Shown here in pieces: positions 3,491 through 13,597 of a DNA stretch of 46,316 bases. The first letter of the stretch is position 1. Every line of letters begins with the position of its first letter. Made by a program: the position numbers and the translations under genes. The stretch is from assembly GCA_024542985.1 (NCBI GenBank), contig JAMXCX010000008.1:1-46316 (forward strand). Direction: 5' to 3'. This DNA is from Candidatus Omnitrophota bacterium (GTDB lineage Bacteria; Omnitrophota; Gorgyraeia; Duberdicusellales; 4484-171). The notes under the pieces were generated by a model. That model saw only the letters and a list, made by a program, of their open reading frames with translations. It was not told the DNA's origin and did not search any database.

Positions 3491-4090
3491 ATGGATAATA
3501 AACTAATAAAATCAACAGTCGAATCATTACTGTTTATTAATGAAAAGCCTATTGAAATGAATGAGCTGCGCCAAATTCTCGAAACTGACAAAAAAGAAAC
3601 AGTCCAAGCTTTAGAGGAGCTAATTCAGGAATATAAACAGCGCAAATCAGGAGTATGCATTGTAAAGGTAGCTGGTGGGTATCAAATGTGTTCTGCACCC
3701 GAGAATGAGCCTTGGGTTAAAAGAATGTGCCAAGAGCGGAGTAAACAGAAACTTTCCATAGCCTCTTTAGAAACCTTAGCGATAGTTGCTTATAAGCAGC
3801 CGATAACCCGCATAGAAATAGAAGCAATAAGAGGAGTTAATATTGATGGAGTTATGCGTAAACTTTCTGAACTGGGGTTGGTAAAAATTATCGGCCGCAA
3901 AGATGTTGTGGGCAAGCCTTTTCTTTACGCAACCACACGAAAATTCTTGGAATATTTCGGTATTAATTCATTAATGGATTTGCCGAAATTAGAGGATTTT
4001 ATTGCCTTAGCAGAAAAAGAAAAAATACCCAGTAATTGTGAAAATAATAGTGATGAAAATGTTGCGGCTAAGGAGGAGGTAAAACAATGA
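3491..4090 (+). CDS. scpB: Segregation and condensation protein ScpB
   Basis: ScpB is the winged-helix dimer that, with the kleisin ScpA, bridges SMC heads in chromosome condensation. The 199-aa protein has the two winged-helix domains of the family. The most recognisable stretch is [23 protein letters not shown] (quoted in part: [11 protein letters not shown]), followed by RGVN and a [15 protein letters not shown] segment. scpA is not adjacent, which is unusual because scpA-scpB pairs are common. The 3' end overlaps metK by 4 nt (ATGA), so the two are translationally coupled despite unrelated functions. Confidence 0.93.
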
Positions 4091-5223
4091 AAACTTATTT
4101 CGCATCTGAATCAGTTACCGAAGGGCATCCTGATAAGGTATGCGATCAGATATCAGACGCGGTATTAGATGAGATATTAGCTAACGATAAAAATGGCCGG
4201 GTAGCTTGTGAAGCCTTGGCAACGAGAGGATTGATAGTCGTGGCCGGGGAAATAACCACTGATTGTTATGTTAGTATTCCTAAAGTTGTCCGTAAACTGC
4301 TCAAAACTATTGGTTACGATGATCCAGCCGGAGGCTTTGATTATGAAAGCTGCGGAGTCGTAACTGCCATTCAAGAACAGTCGGCTGACATTGCTCTAGG
4401 CGTTGATACCGGCGGAGCCGGAGACCAAGGCCTAATGTTTGGTTTTGCTAATTCTGAGACTCCGGAGCTTATGCCTCTTCCAATTATGCTATCGCATCGG
4501 CTCGCGCAGCGTTTATCGGAGTTGCGCAAAGATGGTACCCTTGCCTATTTGAGACCGGATGGGAAATCTCAGGTTTCGATTGAGTATGAAGCCGGAAAGC
4601 CCCGGCGGGTAGATGCGGTAATTATTGGCGCACATCACAGCAAAGATGTGAAAACAGAAGATTTACGGGCGGATATAAAAAAACTGGTAATAGATTGCAT
4701 TGTTCCTAAAGATATGCTAGACAAAAACACAACAATTTTTATCAACGGAACAGGCCGTTTTGAAATCGGCGGGCCAGTTTCGGATACCGGAATAACCGGC
4801 CGTAAGATTATAGTGGACACTTATGGCGGTTATGCTCGTCATGGCGGAGGAGCTTTTTCCGGGAAAGATCCCTCAAAGGTTGATAGGTCTGCTTCCTACA
4901 TGGCGCGGTACATTGCAAAAAATATTGTTAAAGCCGGGATTGCTAAAACCTGCGAAATACAGCTATCTTATTGTATTGGTATTGCTGAACCAGTATCGAT
5001 AAATGTAGATACTTTTGGAACTTCGCAAGTTGATGAAGCTAAGATTTCTAAAGTCATAAGAGAGGTTTTCAAACTTACTCCCGGAGGGATTATCAGCGAA
5101 CTTGATTTGCTTAAGCCCATATATACCAAAACCGCCGCTTATGGTCATTTCGGAAGGGAAAATGAAGGTTTTGCTTGGGAAAAAACCGATAAAGTTGATA
5201 TTTTGAAGAAAGCACTTAGTTAA
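4087..5223 (+). CDS. metK: S-adenosylmethionine synthetase MetK
   Basis: MetK makes S-adenosylmethionine from methionine and ATP. The 378-aa protein has the ATP-binding [12 protein letters not shown] segment near residue 15, the signature [12 protein letters not shown] near residue 112, and the second signature [17 protein letters not shown] near residue 255. Length and domains are those of a normal bacterial MetK. It has a strong AAGGAGGT site inside the end of scpB. ahcY follows 85 nt downstream, pairing SAM synthesis with removal of its by-product. I looked for a SAM riboswitch in front and saw none, as the gene overlaps scpB. Confidence 0.97.
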
Positions 5224-5308
5224 TTGATAAAAGTCTAAATAGTTTAAAGTTTAAAAACAGACAGGCTTAGATATCAGTTTCGAATCTTTAAAAGGAGCAA
5301 AAAGAAAA

Positions 5309-6577
5309 ATGGAATATGATATAAAAAATAAAAGTCTTAAAATTGCCGGAAAAAAAAGAATTGAATGGGCTATAAAGCGAATGCCTGTTTTAGAGCAAGT
5401 GCGTCAGCGATTCAGCAGGGAGAAGACTCTTAAAGGTCTAACTATTGGTGCCTGTTTACATGTTACCACAGAAACTGCCGCTTTAGCTATTACTCTAAAG
5501 GCTGCAGGAGCTCGTCCGCTTATCTGCGCTTCTAATCCTTTGTCTACTCAAGATGACACCGCTGCTTCTTTAGTGTTTGATTATGGCATAGAAGTGTTTG
5601 CTATAAATGGCGAAGATACAAAAACATATTACAAGCATATTAATTCGGTTTTAAAGAATAAGCCTCAGATTACTCTTGATGACGGAGCTGATTTAGTATC
5701 AACAATTCATAAACAATTTGCGGCCGGTAAAAATAATAATATTGCTTTACCTTGGGCCAGCACAGAAGAAACTACAACCGGGGTAATACGCTTAAAAGCC
5801 CTAGAGAAAGAAGGAAAACTTCTTTATCCAATCATCGCCGTAAATGATGCTTACACTAAACATCTATTTGATAATCGTTATGGCACAGGCCAGTCTACAC
5901 TTGACGGAATAATTAGGGCTACTAATAAATTGATAGCCGGAACTACCTTGGTTGTGGCTGGATATGGCTGGTGCGGAAAGGGCTTGGCTCGCAAGGCCCA
6001 AGGCTTAGGGGCAAATGTGATTATTTGTGAAGTCAATCACCTCAAGGCTCTGGAAGCTGTTATGGATGGCTTCCGGGTGATGCCCATGAAGGAGGCAGCC
6101 AAAATAGGCGATATTTTTATTACTGTTACCGGCGATATAAATGTCATATCCAGGCAATGTTTTCCTCTTATGAAAGATAGGGCGATAGTCGCCAACTCCG
6201 GGCATTTTGACGTTGAAATTCAGATCAAGGCTTTAGAAGAAATGGCAGTAACAAAAAAAGAAGTTAAGCCTCTTGTGCGTGAGTACACGTTTAAAAATAA
6301 AAAAAGGATTTATCTTTTAGGGGAAGGCCGGCTGGTCAATCTCGCCTGTGCTGAAGGGCACCCGGCCGAAGTAATGGATTTAAGTTTTGCCAACCAGGCT
6401 CTAAGTTGTGAATATGTTAAGAAATTTAAGGCAAAACTGCAGAAAAAGGTCTATAAAGTTCCGGACCAAATAGATTTTAAAATTGCCGAACTTAAATTAA
6501 AATCTCTGGGCATAAAAATTGATAAATTGACCGGTGAGCAAAAAGAATATCTTAGCACTTGGCAGTCGGGAACTTAA
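5309..6577 (+). CDS. ahcY: Adenosylhomocysteinase (SAH hydrolase)
   Basis: The enzyme splits S-adenosylhomocysteine into adenosine and homocysteine using tightly bound NAD, relieving product inhibition of methyltransferases. The 422-aa protein shows the substrate-binding HVTTETAAL segment near residue 50, the E-TTTG motif (STEETTTGVIR), and the NAD-binding Rossmann loop GYGWCGKGLA near residue 213. It ends with EYLSTWQSGT, lacking the longer C-terminal KPDHYRY tail of many bacterial and eukaryotic enzymes and resembling the shorter thermophile/archaeal type. An AAAAGGAG site precedes the ATG. With metK it forms a methyl-cycle pair. Confidence 0.94.
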   Translation: MEYDIKNKSLKIAGKKRIEWAIKRMPVLEQVRQRFSREKTLKGLTIGACLHVTTETAALAITLKAAGARPLICASNPLSTQDDTAASLVFDYGIEVFAINGEDTKTYYKHINSVLKNKPQITLDDGADLVSTIHKQFAAGKNNNIALPWASTEETTTGVIRLKALEKEGKLLYPIIAVNDAYTKHLFDNRYGTGQSTLDGIIRATNKLIAGTTLVVAGYGWCGKGLARKAQGLGANVIICEVNHLKALEAVMDGFRVMPMKEAAKIGDIFITVTGDINVISRQCFPLMKDRAIVANSGHFDVEIQIKALEEMAVTKKEVKPLVREYTFKNKKRIYLLGEGRLVNLACAEGHPAEVMDLSFANQALSCEYVKKFKAKLQKKVYKVPDQIDFKIAELKLKSLGIKIDKLTGEQKEYLSTWQSGT

Positions 6578-6686: not shown

Positions 6687-8363
6687 ATGAAAAGAATTCT
6701 CATTTTGGCTATTTTTATTTTTTCCTGGGTAAGCCCGATTTTTTGCCAAAACACAATTTCTTCCGAAATAAAGGAAGTAGTCTTATTCACCAATCAAGCC
6801 CTGATAACGCGCACAGCTACCACCAAAGTCAAGGCCGGCCTGAACGAAATACTTATTGAAACCAAAAGTTTTAACCTAGATCGTGATTCTATCCAGGCCG
6901 TAGTCTATGGTAAAGGAGAAGTCTATAGTGTGCAGTTTCGGGAAGTTCACCTAAAGGAGCAGCCTCAACTGAACATACGAGAACTAATATCAAAATTAGA
7001 AGGCTTTCAGGATAGACGCAAGAGCCTAGTGAATAAAAAGGAAGTGTTAGATAGAAAGAATGATTTTTTAAATTCATTTATTGACTTTGCCCAATCGCAA
7101 GTTCCTCAGGATTTAAAAACCCAATTTCCAAAGTTAGAGAATTTGAAGAAAAGCCTCAATTTTTTAGATGAGAGTTATGATAACATTAATAAAGACGATG
7201 AGGACTTAAGCCGCAGAATTCGCGAGCTGGATAAAGAAATAGCCCTTGTTAAGCAGAAATTATCGGCAGTAAGAGGAGAGGGAAGAAAAACAAAAAAGGT
7301 TATTGAGATTTTGTTTAATTCTGCAAAAGCCCAGCGAATCAAAATTGAGGCCGCTTATTTGGTTTACAATGCTTATTGGAGCCCTTTTTACAAGGTAAAT
7401 GTGCCCAAAGGCCTAAAAGATGTTAATTTGGCTATGTTTGCGAAAGTTCGTCAAAAAACCGGCGAAGATTGGGAAAATGTACGGCTTTCAATTTCAAATA
7501 TTATCCCTTTGAAAGGCGTGAGGTTGCCGGAATTAAATAGCTGGCATTTAAATTTGTCGAGACCTCAAGCTAAAGCTCCCTCATATAGAAAACGAAAAGG
7601 GATGTTTTTTGGCAAGGCAGATAAAAAGCGACCGATGCGATTAGAAATAGCCGGTGGGTTAAATCGCGAAGCCCTTTATGAAGCAGATCAGTTTTCAGAA
7701 AAGGCAGATTTTGCCTCAGCCCAGGCTAAAGAACTTCCTCTTTCTTTTGAATACGAGTTGCCTCAGGCCTTTAGCCTGGAGTCAAAAAAGATAGAGGCAA
7801 TTTTGCCGATATTTTCAAAGACCCTAAAAGGGGAATTTTCCTACTATGCTATTCCCAAAATAAGTGCCTTAACTTTTTTGGTTTGTAAAACATCTGCTGA
7901 TGAAGAATTTTTAAGCGGCCCTTTAAATGTTCATTTTGCCGGCCGCTTTATCGGTAAAACGCATTTGAGCGAGAAAAAGGCCGGTGAGGAATTTAATTTA
8001 AGTTTAGGTGCAGACCGGCAGATAAAAGTTAAGCGCGAGAAAATAAAGGACAAAGTTAAAGAAACATTCTTTAAGAAAATTAGCCGTCAGACTATAATCC
8101 GGGATGTAGTGCTAAAAATAACTGTTGAGAATTTAAAGAGTAAGACCGTTAAAATTAAGATTCTGGATAATATACCGGTATCGCAGACTGATAGAATTGA
8201 AGTAAAAAATTTGCAAATCAATCCTGAGCCGAATAAGAAAAACTATCAAGATAAAGAAGGGGTTAATCTTTGGAATTTGAAATTGAAACCTAAGGAAAAG
8301 AAAGAGATTGCCATCAAATTTACTCTTACTTACCCTAAGGGTACGTTTATCTCAGGCCTATGA
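6687..8363 (+). CDS. Secreted DUF4139 domain protein (mucoidy-inhibitor A-like)
   Basis: The 558-aa product begins with a clear signal peptide (MKRILILAIFIFSWVSPIFCQ). It then has the DUF4140 N-terminal segment (VVLFTNQALITRTATTKVKAG), a coiled-coil middle (about residues 95-205) and the DUF4139 domain: YNAYWSPFYKV followed by a beta-rich C-terminus with the QKTGEDWENVRLSIS motif. These proteins are exported; their biochemical role is not established. The start follows a long G-run (AAAAAAAGGGGGGGG). The stop overlaps the pfkA start (ATGA). The family call is firm, the function unknown. Confidence 0.87.
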   Translation: MKRILILAIFIFSWVSPIFCQNTISSEIKEVVLFTNQALITRTATTKVKAGLNEILIETKSFNLDRDSIQAVVYGKGEVYSVQFREVHLKEQPQLNIRELISKLEGFQDRRKSLVNKKEVLDRKNDFLNSFIDFAQSQVPQDLKTQFPKLENLKKSLNFLDESYDNINKDDEDLSRRIRELDKEIALVKQKLSAVRGEGRKTKKVIEILFNSAKAQRIKIEAAYLVYNAYWSPFYKVNVPKGLKDVNLAMFAKVRQKTGEDWENVRLSISNIIPLKGVRLPELNSWHLNLSRPQAKAPSYRKRKGMFFGKADKKRPMRLEIAGGLNREALYEADQFSEKADFASAQAKELPLSFEYELPQAFSLESKKIEAILPIFSKTLKGEFSYYAIPKISALTFLVCKTSADEEFLSGPLNVHFAGRFIGKTHLSEKKAGEEFNLSLGADRQIKVKREKIKDKVKETFFKKISRQTIIRDVVLKITVENLKSKTVKIKILDNIPVSQTDRIEVKNLQINPEPNKKNYQDKEGVNLWNLKLKPKEKKEIAIKFTLTYPKGTFISGL

Positions 8364-9313
8364 AAAAAATCGGTGTTTTAACTAGAGATTGCGCCGGAGT
8401 TAATGCGGCTATCCGGGCCGTAGTAAGAAGCGCATCTTGTTATAATATCGAAACACTAGGAATATTGCGGGGTTATCAAGGTCTTATCCAGGGAGATTTT
8501 AAGATTTTGAGCCGGAGTTCTGTATCCGGAATAATCAATCGGGGCGGAACAATTCTCAAAACTGCCCGCTCAAAAGAGTTTTTCACCGGTAAGGGCCAGC
8601 TGAAGGCAGTTATGAATATTAAAAAAAATAAGATAGACGGTTTAATAATTATTGGTGGGAACGGCTCTTTAGCAGGCGCGCATATACTGGCTTCAAAATA
8701 TTCGGTACCTGTTATGGGAGTTCCTGCGACTATTGATAACGACGTAAATGGCGTAGGCATGGCAATTGGAGCAGATACGGCGATAAATGTAGCGCTAGAT
8801 GCTCTAGATAAGATACGGGATACCGCGACATCCTTAGAGAGAATTTTTGTGGTAGAAGTTATGGGCCGCGATTGCGGATACATTGCTTCGAGAGTTGCCC
8901 TGGCTGGTGGTTGCGAAGATGTCATATTGCCGGAGAGGCATTTTGATATCAGAAAAATGTCCGCTGAGATAGCCGAAGGCAACAGGCGAGGCAAGGTGAG
9001 TTGGATAATTGTTGTTGCTGAAGGAAAAGCAAAGGCCGGGGATATTGCAAAGAAAATCAGGAAAAACACCCGACTCGAAACCCGGGAGCTTGTTCTTGGG
9101 CATATACAGCGTGGGGGTTCCCCTTCGGCTTTTGATAGAATACTCGCTGCCCGTTATGCAACTTATGCGGTTGAAAAATTAAGAAAGGGTGAGACTGATA
9201 AATGTGTAACATTAAAAAATGAAAAATTAGATACTCTACCTTTAGCTAAAGCAATTCAACCTAAGGATATTGAAATTAATAGTTATTATAAACTCATAAA
9301 AATCTTAACATAG
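8360..9313 (+). CDS. pfkA: 6-phosphofructokinase family protein with altered donor-binding motifs
   Basis: The 317-aa protein aligns along its length with bacterial PfkA. It keeps the catalytic TIDND (T124-D128), MGR (168-170), E221 and the fructose-6-phosphate-binding GHIQRGGSP. Two donor-site motifs differ. The canonical LTSGGDAPGMN is LTRDCAGVN, two residues shorter and without GGD; and GGDGS is GGNGS, with Asn101 at the place of the Mg-binding Asp103 of E. coli. The glycine after it is the ATP-type, not the PPi-type Asp. The phosphoryl donor therefore cannot be read from sequence. Overlaps the DUF4139 gene by 4 nt and precedes an aldolase gene, so a glycolytic role is likely. Confidence 0.87.
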   Translation: MKKIGVLTRDCAGVNAAIRAVVRSASCYNIETLGILRGYQGLIQGDFKILSRSSVSGIINRGGTILKTARSKEFFTGKGQLKAVMNIKKNKIDGLIIIGGNGSLAGAHILASKYSVPVMGVPATIDNDVNGVGMAIGADTAINVALDALDKIRDTATSLERIFVVEVMGRDCGYIASRVALAGGCEDVILPERHFDIRKMSAEIAEGNRRGKVSWIIVVAEGKAKAGDIAKKIRKNTRLETRELVLGHIQRGGSPSAFDRILAARYATYAVEKLRKGETDKCVTLKNEKLDTLPLAKAIQPKDIEINSYYKLIKILT

Positions 9314-9349
9314 ACTCGTGGTAATTTTTTATTTTTGAGGAGGTATAAA

Positions 9350-10753
9350 ATGGTATATAGGAATGAGGCAGAGTTCATAAATGGAAACATTTTAGCTATC
9401 GAAGGCGAAAACATAACAATAAAAAATGTCAGGACTTTTCAAGATGAAGTCATTGATAATATAGTCGATACCATAGTCGTGGGTGATTCTGCCTACTTAA
9501 AGAAGATTTGTTACTGGGCAGCTTATAGCTGTGGAATTCAGCTAGGGGTAATTCCGGCGTCGATTCAAGAATTGTATAGTGCTATGGGCAGGGGTGAAGT
9601 TAAAGGATTTTGCGTACCGGCTATAAATATTCGAACCCTCACTTTTGATTCAGCCAGGGCGGTTTTTCGGGCTGCAAAAAAAATAGAAGCCGGAGCCTTT
9701 ATTTTTGAAATTGCCAAAAGTGAAATAGGCTACACAAACCAGCGGCCGCAAGAATATACTTCAATTATTATTTTAGCGGCAATGAGGGAAAACTATCGGG
9801 GCCCGGTATTCATTCAAGGGGATCATTTTCAAGTCAACGCCAAGAATTACCGCAATGATAAAGAGAAAGAAACCAGCCAGCTTAAAAGTGTAATCAAGGA
9901 GGCTATTGAAGCTAACTTTTACAATATTGATATTGATTCATCTACTCTGGTAGATTTATCAAAGCCCACACTGGATGAACAGCAAAGACTTAATTACGAG
10001 GTATGTTCGTTTTTCACTGACTACATACGGCGGTTGCAACCGAAAGATATAGAGATATCTATTGGCGGAGAAATAGGAGAAGTCGGCGGGAAAAATTCTA
10101 CAGCTAAAGAGCTGCATGCCTTTATGCGCGGATACCGTGATAACATCAGAGCCTTAAAAGGTATTTCGAAAATAAGCATTCAGACCGGAACTAGCCACGG
10201 CGGTGTAGTTTTGCCTGATGGCTCCATGGCTAAAGTTAATATAGACTTCGCTACCTTAAATGATCTTTCGGAAATTTCCCGAAAGGATTATTCAATGGCT
10301 GGTGCTGTTCAGCACGGTGCATCTACTTTGCCCAATGAGGCTTTTCATCATTTTAGAGAGGCTGGCTGTGCAGAGGTCCATCTGGCTACGCAATTCCAGA
10401 ATATGACATATGATTACTTACCTTTGCGCCTGAAAGAAAAAATTTATGCCTGGTTGCATCAAGAATGTTCCGGAGAGAAAAAAGAGGGTTGGACTAATGA
10501 TCAGTTTATATACAAAGTTCGGAAAAAAGCCCTCGGCCCGTTTAAAAAAGAAATACATTCACTTGCCACAGAGGCGAAAAATAAAATTTCCGGCGTTTTA
10601 GAACAGGAATTTTCTTTTCTTTTTGAACAACTCAACATCAAAGATACTAAAGCTGTAGTCGAGAAGTATATCAAGAGAGTAGTGATAGAAAAAACGAAAG
10701 ACGATTTTATAAAAGAAGATAGAGATTTAGGGGTGTTAGAAGGCGCCGACTAA
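9350..10753 (+). CDS. fba: Class II (metal-dependent) aldolase, long form; probable fructose-bisphosphate aldolase
   Basis: I start the gene at ATG 9350, behind GAGGAGGT, because the TTG in the ORF track lies upstream of that site. The 467-aa protein carries the class II ligands: H159 (QGDHFQ), the Glu of IGGEIGEVGG, H283 (GTSHGG) and H322 (AVQHGAS), plus the DIDSST segment. An N-terminal extension of about 65 residues and a C-terminal region of about 100 residues flank the barrel, making it longer than E. coli FbaA (359 aa). Placement directly after pfkA supports cleavage of fructose 1,6-bisphosphate, but a tagatose- or other ketose-bisphosphate substrate cannot be excluded. Confidence 0.85.
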   Translation: MVYRNEAEFINGNILAIEGENITIKNVRTFQDEVIDNIVDTIVVGDSAYLKKICYWAAYSCGIQLGVIPASIQELYSAMGRGEVKGFCVPAINIRTLTFDSARAVFRAAKKIEAGAFIFEIAKSEIGYTNQRPQEYTSIIILAAMRENYRGPVFIQGDHFQVNAKNYRNDKEKETSQLKSVIKEAIEANFYNIDIDSSTLVDLSKPTLDEQQRLNYEVCSFFTDYIRRLQPKDIEISIGGEIGEVGGKNSTAKELHAFMRGYRDNIRALKGISKISIQTGTSHGGVVLPDGSMAKVNIDFATLNDLSEISRKDYSMAGAVQHGASTLPNEAFHHFREAGCAEVHLATQFQNMTYDYLPLRLKEKIYAWLHQECSGEKKEGWTNDQFIYKVRKKALGPFKKEIHSLATEAKNKISGVLEQEFSFLFEQLNIKDTKAVVEKYIKRVVIEKTKDDFIKEDRDLGVLEGAD

Positions 10754-10784: not shown

Positions 10785-12440
10785 ATGCGTTCAGACAAAA
10801 TTAAAAAAGGATTAGAAAGAATGCCTAACCGGGCCCTTCTTTACGGAGTGGGTTTGCACCCTTCGCATATGAACAGGCCGTTTATCGGTATTGCCAGCAG
10901 TTATACTGATATTATTCCCGGCCATATTAATATGCGGACTTTGGAAAGATACATCGAGCGGGGAGTAGAAAATGGCGGCGGAACGCCTTTTATATTTGGT
11001 GTTCCGGGGATATGTGACGGCATTGCCATGGGCCATAGCGGCATGAGGCAGTCTTTGCCTTCGAGAGAGTTAATCGCAGATATAATTGAAAATATATCCA
11101 ACGCCCATGCTTGGGATGGTCTGATATTGCTTACCAATTGTGACAAAATTACCCCAGGAATGATAATGGGAGCTTTAAGAATAAATTTGCCCACTATCGT
11201 GGTTACCGCCGGGCCCATGCTTTCCGGACATTTCGGCAAAAAGAAGCTTTCCTTAGTAAGGGATACTTTTGAAGCCGTGGGAAGATTCAAGGCTGGTCAA
11301 ATATCTGAAGACCAAAGGCAAGTTTTAGAAATCGAAGCTTGTCCTTCTTGTGGATCTTGCCAGGGGTTATATACTGCCAATACTATGTCTTGTTTGACTG
11401 AAACCTTAGGGCTTTCACTGCCCTATTGCGCTACGTCTCCGGCTGTTTTAAATAAGAAGGTAAGAATTGCCTATGAAAGCGGGCAGAGAATAGTGCAACT
11501 GGTTAAAGGAGACCTAAAGCCTAGAGATATTGTAACTAGGAAATCTCTTGAAAATGCGATTAGAGTTGATATGGCTTTAGGTGGTTCAACTAATACAGTT
11601 TTGCATTTGATGGCAATCGCTAATGAGGCCAAAATAAGCCTGAATCTTAATGATTTTGATAGGATAAGTCGAAGTACGCCGCATATCTCAAATTTAAGAC
11701 CAGGCGGTGAATATTTTATGGAAGATTTAGATTATGCCGGAGGTATCCCTGCAGTTTTAAAAAGGCTGATAACTAAGTTGAATGAGAATCCGACTGTAGT
11801 TGGTAAAAAAATAAAAGAAATAGCCAGAGATGCGCAACTGTACGACGAGGATGTAATCAGGCCTCTAAATAATCCTTACCATGAGCAAGGTGGCATTGCT
11901 ATTCTTTATGGAAATTTAGCTCCTGATGGCTGTGTAGTTAAGCAGTCAGCCGTTGATTCCGATATGCTAAAATTTTCTGGGAAAGCCCGTGTTTTTAATT
12001 CGGAAGAGGAAGCGATGAAGGCTATTTTAGAGAAAGAAATAAAAAGAGGACAGGTAATAGTGATAAGATATGAAGGTCCTAGAGGAGGCCCTGGTATGCG
12101 TGAAATGCTGTCTCCTACAAGTGCAATTGTAGGAATGGGCTTGCACAAACATGTGGCTTTGATCACTGACGGCCGTTTTTCCGGAGGAACTCGCGGCCCT
12201 TGCATCGGACATATTTCTCCTGAGGCGTCACAAGGAGGTTTACTTGCTTATTTGAAAGATGATGATATGATTACCCTAGATATCCTGAAACGAAAAATAG
12301 AAGTTAGATTAAGTAAACTTGAAATCGAAAGGAGAAAAAAAACTATTAAGATTTTACCTCCCAAGATTAAGACCGGGTATTTGTCGCGTTATTCAAAAAT
12401 GGTAACTTCTGCATCTGCGGGGGCAGTATTTGAACAATAA
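10785..12440 (+). CDS. ilvD: Dihydroxy-acid dehydratase IlvD
   Basis: IlvD dehydrates 2,3-dihydroxy acids to 2-keto acids in valine, leucine and isoleucine synthesis, using an Fe-S cluster. The 551-aa protein has the two cysteine signatures [12 protein letters not shown] (near residue 115) and [16 protein letters not shown] (near residue 190), and the C-terminal GHISPEA segment. The first cysteine found in 2Fe-2S-type enzymes is replaced by glycine here (IIPGH), as in the E. coli type. A related sugar-acid dehydratase is the main alternative, but the motifs and length favour IlvD. An AAGGGGGAAAGG site precedes the ATG. No other ilv gene is in the window. Confidence 0.93.
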
Positions 12441-12500
12441 ATACGCATTTTTTCAACCTTAACCCTAGCCTAAACCTTGGCCTTTTTTAGAAACTTATTA

Positions 12501-12528
12501 TTGACAATATATAGGTCTTTGGTATCAT
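12501..12528 (+). promoter_or_regulatory. Sigma-70-type promoter for mreB
   Basis: TTGACA (12501-12506) and TATCAT (12523-12528) are 16 bp apart. A start point about 7 bp after the -10 box would fall near 12535, only about four bases before the mreB ATG at 12539. The mRNA would then be almost leaderless. Confidence 0.65.
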
Positions 12529-12538
12529 TAAACTTAGG

Positions 12539-13597
12539 ATGAAAATACTAAGCACATTCCTGAAAAGAATTATCAATTTGTTTGGCGCTTTCTCCACCGA
12601 TATCGGTATTGATTTAGGCACGGCCACTACCCTTGTGTATTTACGAGGAGAAGGAATTGTTTTGTGCGAGCCCTCAGTAGCTGCAATTTATAGAGACACC
12701 GGTGTTCCTTTGGCAATTGGGGAAGAAGCTAAACGCATGCTCGGGAAGACGCCAGGTAGTATAATTGCTATTAGGCCTATGAAGGATGGGGTGATAGCTG
12801 ATTTTGATGTGACTGAGGCCATGCTTAGATATTTTATTAAAAAAGCTTATCCCCGAAAAGTATTGTTTGGGCCGAGGATAGTAGTTGCGGTTCCTTCCGG
12901 TATTACCGAAGTAGAAAAAAGAGCGGTAAAAGATTCTGCTCTTCGCGCCGGCGCGCGTGAAGTTATACCTGTTGAAGAGCCTATCGCCGCTGCAATAGGT
13001 GTAGGGCTTCCTATAGCTGAGCCGCAAGGCAGCATGATAATTGATATCGGAGGCGGAACTACGGAAATAGCCGTAATTTCTCTAGGGGGAATAGTCTATT
13101 CTCGTTCAATCCGCATTGGTGGTGATGAGATGGACGCAGGAATTATTGAACATATGAAGAAAAATTACAACCTTCTGGTCGGTGAACGAACCGCTGAGGC
13201 AATAAAGATAAAAATGGGTTCTGCTTGGCCGATTGATGAGAAATTAACGATAGAGGTAAGAGGCCGCGATTTAATCACCGGTCTTCCTAAATTTATCAAA
13301 GCCAAATCAGAAGAAATTAGACAGGCCTTAGAGCCGGCCTTAAAAGAGATTCTTGAAGCAACGAAAGCTACGCTCGAGCGAACACCGCCGGAGTTAGCTG
13401 CAGATTTGATTGAAAGAGGTATCGTACTTTGTGGAGGCGGCGCCTTATTAAGAGGGCTGGATAGGTTAATTTCTGAAGAGACAGGCCTAGCTTGTTTTGT
13501 TGCCGAAGATCCTTTGACTGCCGTGGCCTTGGGAACAGGAAAAATTTTAGAAGAACCGAAATTCTTAAAGAAGCTTTCCCTTGTATCTTCCTTCTAA
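12539..13597 (+). CDS. mreB: Rod shape-determining protein MreB
   Basis: MreB is the bacterial actin that guides sidewall peptidoglycan synthesis. The 352-aa protein has the actin-fold phosphate loops [11 protein letters not shown] (near residue 24) and [12 protein letters not shown] (near residue 168), the connecting segment and the adenosine motif [13 protein letters not shown]. The N-terminus [16 protein letters not shown] looks like the amphipathic helix that anchors MreB to the inner membrane; no in-frame ATG offers a shorter start. It leads the cluster mreB-mreC-mreD-mrdA-rodA and has its own promoter just upstream. Confidence 0.97.

Follow-up and report, generated by a model that had tools for sequence, protein, structure and literature searches.

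Which phosphoryl donor, if any, serves a phosphofructokinase (PFK) whose donor loop has been shortened? The question is raised by a gene of Candidatus Omnitrophota lying in the window, by which we mean the whole 46,316-nucleotide stretch of DNA analysed, from a host genome of 1.57 Mb that is 88% complete. Published donor motifs of PFK-A enzymes are GGDGSxxG for ATP, GGDGSxxI for ADP and GG(D/E)D(S/T) for pyrophosphate (PPi) (PMC11609450), and the Lys of PKTIDND is a further, imperfect marker of PPi dependence (PMC12203962). A first-pass annotation had described a PfkA fold with altered donor motifs that fits neither standard class. The gene and its motifs are as follows.

8360..9313, + strand: pfk of the donor-loop-deleted clade, encoding a PfkA-type 6-phosphofructokinase of 317 aa (profile matches, alignment, fold model).
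8378..8404, + strand: shortened donor loop LTRDCAGVN, residues 7-15, with one Arg for S9-G10-G11 of the Bacillus enzyme.
8654..8668, + strand: GGNGS, residues 99-103, with the metal ligand Asp103 changed to Asn and Gly104 kept; a common variant.
8723..8743, + strand: PATIDND, residues 122-128, containing the catalytic TIDND (equivalents of Thr125, Asp127 and Asp129).

The open reading frame matched the superfamily profile PF00365 with 322.7 bits (gathering cut-off 30.9) over profile positions 2-275 of 277, and the ATP-dependent 6-phosphofructokinase subfamily PRK03202 with 360.2 bits, above its curated cut-off of 253. It narrowly missed the NCBI equivalog TIGR02482 (PFKA_ATP), with 359.1 bits against a cut-off of 371.35, which counts against an ATP-type reading. 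The closest solved structures are bacterial ATP-PFKs (B. subtilis 4a3s, G. stearothermophilus 4pfk, E. coli 1pfk; PRK03202), which are alike in fold and length and 44-49% identical. The AlphaFold2 model is a confident PFK fold (pLDDT 93.2) with a TM-score of 0.95 to 4a3s, in agreement with the fold claimed earlier. The bacterial ATP enzymes share with the window PFK the catalytic, fructose-6-phosphate (F6P) and core effector residues and the nucleotide-admitting glycines 104 and 108, but they carry SGGD and GGDGS where the window PFK has RD and GGNGS. Alignment with 4a3s placed a gap of exactly two residues in the loop (LTSGGDSPGMN versus LTR--DCAGVN), as the first reading had it.

The LTR--DC loop was found in 31 distinct sequences, comprising aligned family members and further fetched loci, all of which have R9 and the two-residue gap. 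It was absent from 59 other sampled Omnitrophota PfkA and from 78 PfkA homologues of other records; outside-clade rows with missing loop letters are sequences truncated or misaligned at their end. All the other PfkA-type and PPi-type sequences examined that have a complete loop keep the two deleted glycines, which means that the site for the donor phosphates is genuinely changed. The relatives were retrieved by an alignment-based scan of genome contigs, a single-protein scan having given none. The best matches among 285 sampled genomes of the phylum all came from the window's own GTDB family, and the clade is essentially this one family of uncultured Omnitrophota, in whose aligned members T-R-D-C and GGNGS are invariant. 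Because the loops of the sister orders read LTSGGDCAGMN or LTSGGDCSGMN, the change can be described as S-G-G to R, a net loss of two residues, and LTSGGDCAGMN of the sister-order locus L026 likely represents the precursor state.

Trees were built without the loop and GGNGS columns. In the 115-row tree the 31 short-loop sequences formed one clade with a single state change (SH-aLRT 96), and in a careful 61-row tree the clade was recovered with UFBoot/SH-aLRT values of 96/93 and in 95% of sampled bootstrap trees. The homologues with this motif, whose grouping the first-pass annotation had proposed to check, are thus a single clade in both trees, and the deletion arose once.

The two other motifs were present as first described, yet they are ordinary variants that say little about the donor class. 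At the metal position, Asn is carried by 38 of the 59 other Omnitrophota PfkA and by 13 of the 78 homologues of other bacteria, among which are cultured Bacteroidota, for example Allomuricauda and Pontibacter; relatives whose loop is normal widely tolerate the loss of Asp103. In the 115-row tree this position switches between D, N, E and G about 22 times. GGNGS as the mark of a new donor class was therefore rejected, being labile and also found in Bacteroidota; it is present, too, in the near-complete Omnitrophota genomes G191 and G010, for which no second close PFK gene turned up. The Ala of PATIDND (28/59 other Omnitrophota, 12/78 others) was likewise discarded as too common to be informative. 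Judged from the aligned sequences, the loop alone of the three motifs defines the clade. Other Omnitrophota PfkA carry odd donor motifs of their own, GGGGS in L107 and GGEGT in L196, and L185 and L186 have hybrids of GGNGS with PKTIDND or PKSIDND. Nothing usable on GGN-type PFK or on Asp103 or Gly11 mutants was found in the openly accessible literature.

Sites are numbered after the E. coli and Geobacillus enzymes, a numbering partly confirmed in PMC12203962 and PMC11609450. Throughout the 31 sequences the catalytic residues (TIDND, Arg171), the F6P-binding residues (R162, M169, G170, E222, R243, H249, R252) and the core of the effector site (R21, R25, R154, E187, G212, K213) are invariant, which upholds the sugar-phosphate site described at first reading. 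Gly104, Arg72 and Phe76 are likewise found in 31/31 and Tyr41 in 29/31, while position 108 is Gly in 26 and Ala in five. None of the 31 has the PPi-type Asp at 104, the PPi-type Lys at 124 or the ADP-type Ile at 108. Near-invariant in the clade but seldom seen outside it are R9, the deletion, C11, A12 and residues L104, V144, L159, K223, A264, C282 and Y309, the first five of which, up to residue L104, sit at the donor loops. Outside the clade, the otherwise invariant Arg171 position is Asn in five normal-loop Omnitrophota PfkA and His or Gly in two others.

Five close pairs within the clade gave dN/dS values of 0.022-0.061, a sixth (L017/L065) being left out of this range for its unusable dS, and on these values pseudogene decay was rejected. 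The mean root-to-tip distance was 1.91 for the short-loop clade and 1.70 for other Omnitrophota; the clade has not evolved markedly faster than other Omnitrophota PfkA. The neighbourhood of the gene is as follows.

4087..6577, + strand: metK (S-adenosylmethionine synthetase-like, by sequence reading) and ahcY (by profile match), upstream; synteny.
6687..8363, + strand: MuiA-family (DUF4139/DUF4140) gene overlapping the pfk start, only in some relatives.
9335..10753, + strand: divergent class II fructose-bisphosphate aldolase (fba), operon partner, the sole PF01116 gene found in the genome.
10785..13597, + strand: ilvD-like and mreB-like genes, downstream, named by reading the sequence; synteny.

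The order metK-ahcY-(MuiA)-pfk-fba-ilvD-mreB is class-wide, its pfk position being taken by normal-loop as well as by short-loop copies; at locus L104 a short-loop copy lies outside it. Same-operon Omnitrophota PfkA (L026, L021, L108) are orthologous by tree and by the order metK-ahcY-pfk-fba-ilvD, and many have GGNGS, but unlike the window PFK they retain a GGD or GGE loop. The partner that nearly always follows pfk in the class is a 472-aa aldolase-like protein scoring 61 bits to PF01116. It keeps across 53 homologues the Asp, His and Glu expected of a class II aldolase, presumably as ligands, and is probably an unrecognised fructose-bisphosphate (FBP) aldolase subfamily. The MuiA-family gene between ahcY and pfk is patchy (present for example in L074, L084 and L092) in an otherwise unchanged order, reflecting insertion or loss. 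A contig labelled as a Methanosarcinales archaeon (L110) bears an Omnitrophota-type pfk-fba pair and is probably misbinned. Taken together, the invariant catalytic, F6P and effector-core residues, the low dN/dS and the class-wide operon with an aldolase show the short-loop PFK to be constrained and lead us to predict that it is an active enzyme.

A second standard pfk had been suggested as a sign that this one is redundant. The host does encode a second PFK (L001), which is of the mixed or PPi type (GGEDT and PKTIDND) and not a standard ATP enzyme, so the redundancy argument does not cleanly apply. The short-loop variant occurs in 30 of the 37 family genomes, 28 of which also have a PPi-type PFK that resembles L001 or is a longer GGDD(S/T)/PKTMDLD form; three of the seven genomes lacking the variant are at least 90% complete. 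Given this companion in 28/30 genomes and the absence of the variant from 7/37, the short-loop PFK does not look essential. Since PFKs of the PPi type occur widely across the class, the pairing of the two types is probably older than the deletion. A membrane pyrophosphatase is encoded in the host genome, and neither GlpX nor a class I FBPase was detected in it at its 88% completeness. In another family member, 92% complete (G182:C176, L075), the PPi-type PFK is interrupted, with fragments in two frames, one of which contains an in-frame TAG; a PfkA variant was not detected in that genome.

Set against the published motifs, the window PFK has no clean match, which bears out the claim that neither standard class fits. 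Its GGNGSLAG departs from the ATP motif in the Asp alone, and LTSGGD, the ATP-type glycine loop that joins strand 1 to helix 1, is lost by the two-residue deletion in 31/31. GGNGS with PATIDND is not the PPi pattern, and the Gly (26/31) or Ala (5/31) at the xxI position is not that of ADP enzymes. The fold, the catalytic base and the F6P residues (TIDND, R162, MGR, E222, R243, H249, R252) are those of PFK-A with any donor. The PPi-type or mixed group III enzymes (TIGR02483, including L001) share the superfamily and the F6P site but keep a GGGD loop, with the GGEDT and PKTIDND signatures. The cyanobacterial ADP-dependent PFK-A, a precedent for a missed donor switch, have the same fold with GGDGSxxI, where the short-loop clade has GGNGSxxG or GGNGSxxA (PMC11609450).

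We consider it reasonably probable that the short-loop PFK works in glycolysis as an active, allosterically regulated 6-phosphofructokinase of the PfkA type with a remodelled phosphate loop and a nucleoside triphosphate as donor, most likely ATP and possibly GTP. The sequence still permits a nucleotide, because the invariant Gly104 gives the ATP alpha phosphate space and position 108 is a Gly or Ala at the adenine cleft. To judge from conservation, the residues that bind and deprotonate F6P would be the usual ones. In PfkA structures the main chain of Gly11 contacts the ATP phosphates. In the clade the glycine loop joining strand 1 to helix 1 would no longer hold them; in its place the invariant R9 may contact the phosphates, its charge replacing the Gly11 contact, together with the unchanged equivalents of Arg72, Ser105 and Gly104. 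The metal would be held without Asp103, probably by the Asp129 equivalent, so that donor affinity or specificity would be altered without loss of the reaction.

A further PFK-A donor class, in which the glycine loop was discarded and the Arg serves to bind some donor other than ATP (ADP, PPi, polyphosphate or a further one, or Pi in the FBP-to-F6P direction) in a mode unlike the known classes, seems to us rather unlikely. In its favour, the donor site is where the clade changes with least parallel elsewhere are concentrated (R9, the deletion, C11-A12 and residue L104 beside GGNGS), the host has its membrane pyrophosphatase, and ADP-dependent PFK-A were overlooked until 2024 (PMC11609450); against this, the enzyme has none of the known determinants for PPi or ADP, a PPi-type PFK is already in the genome and the nucleotide-permitting glycines are retained. 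Loss of both a near-universal phosphate-binding element and the metal Asp, with a companion PFK in most of the genomes, could instead point to a protein with little or no catalytic activity that binds F6P/FBP as a regulatory subunit or sensor, possibly in partnership with the PPi-type PFK and similar in this to the halves of eukaryotic PFK that are non-catalytic. We hold this improbable: the catalytic base and all of TIDND are invariant, whereas the C-terminal half of human PFK reads ATVSNN there in the alignment, purifying selection is strong, and the root-to-tip distances barely indicate relaxation.

Some PFK-A enzymes, such as C. thermocellum Pfp, accept sedoheptulose-7-phosphate (PMC10339645), and the first-pass annotation had suggested another sugar phosphate. 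A kinase for that sugar or for tagatose-6-phosphate is very unlikely here, as the residues checked in the F6P site do not vary and are those of canonical enzymes, and the alterations lie on the donor side. The source is a metagenome-assembled genome (MAG), in which a sequencing, assembly or frameshift artefact might be suspected; it is ruled out for practical purposes by the same in-frame loop in 31 clade sequences from independent MAGs, the others being about 64-73% identical to the window protein.

Fold, place and most likely reaction of this phosphofructokinase are ordinary; what is unusual is one well-defined, clade-wide change at the donor site. Prediction of the donor by motif would misfile such an enzyme. 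A clade that lost the loop once and kept everything else under strong selection offers a natural experiment on the roles of the loop and of the metal Asp, and on the evolution of donor specificity in PFK-A.
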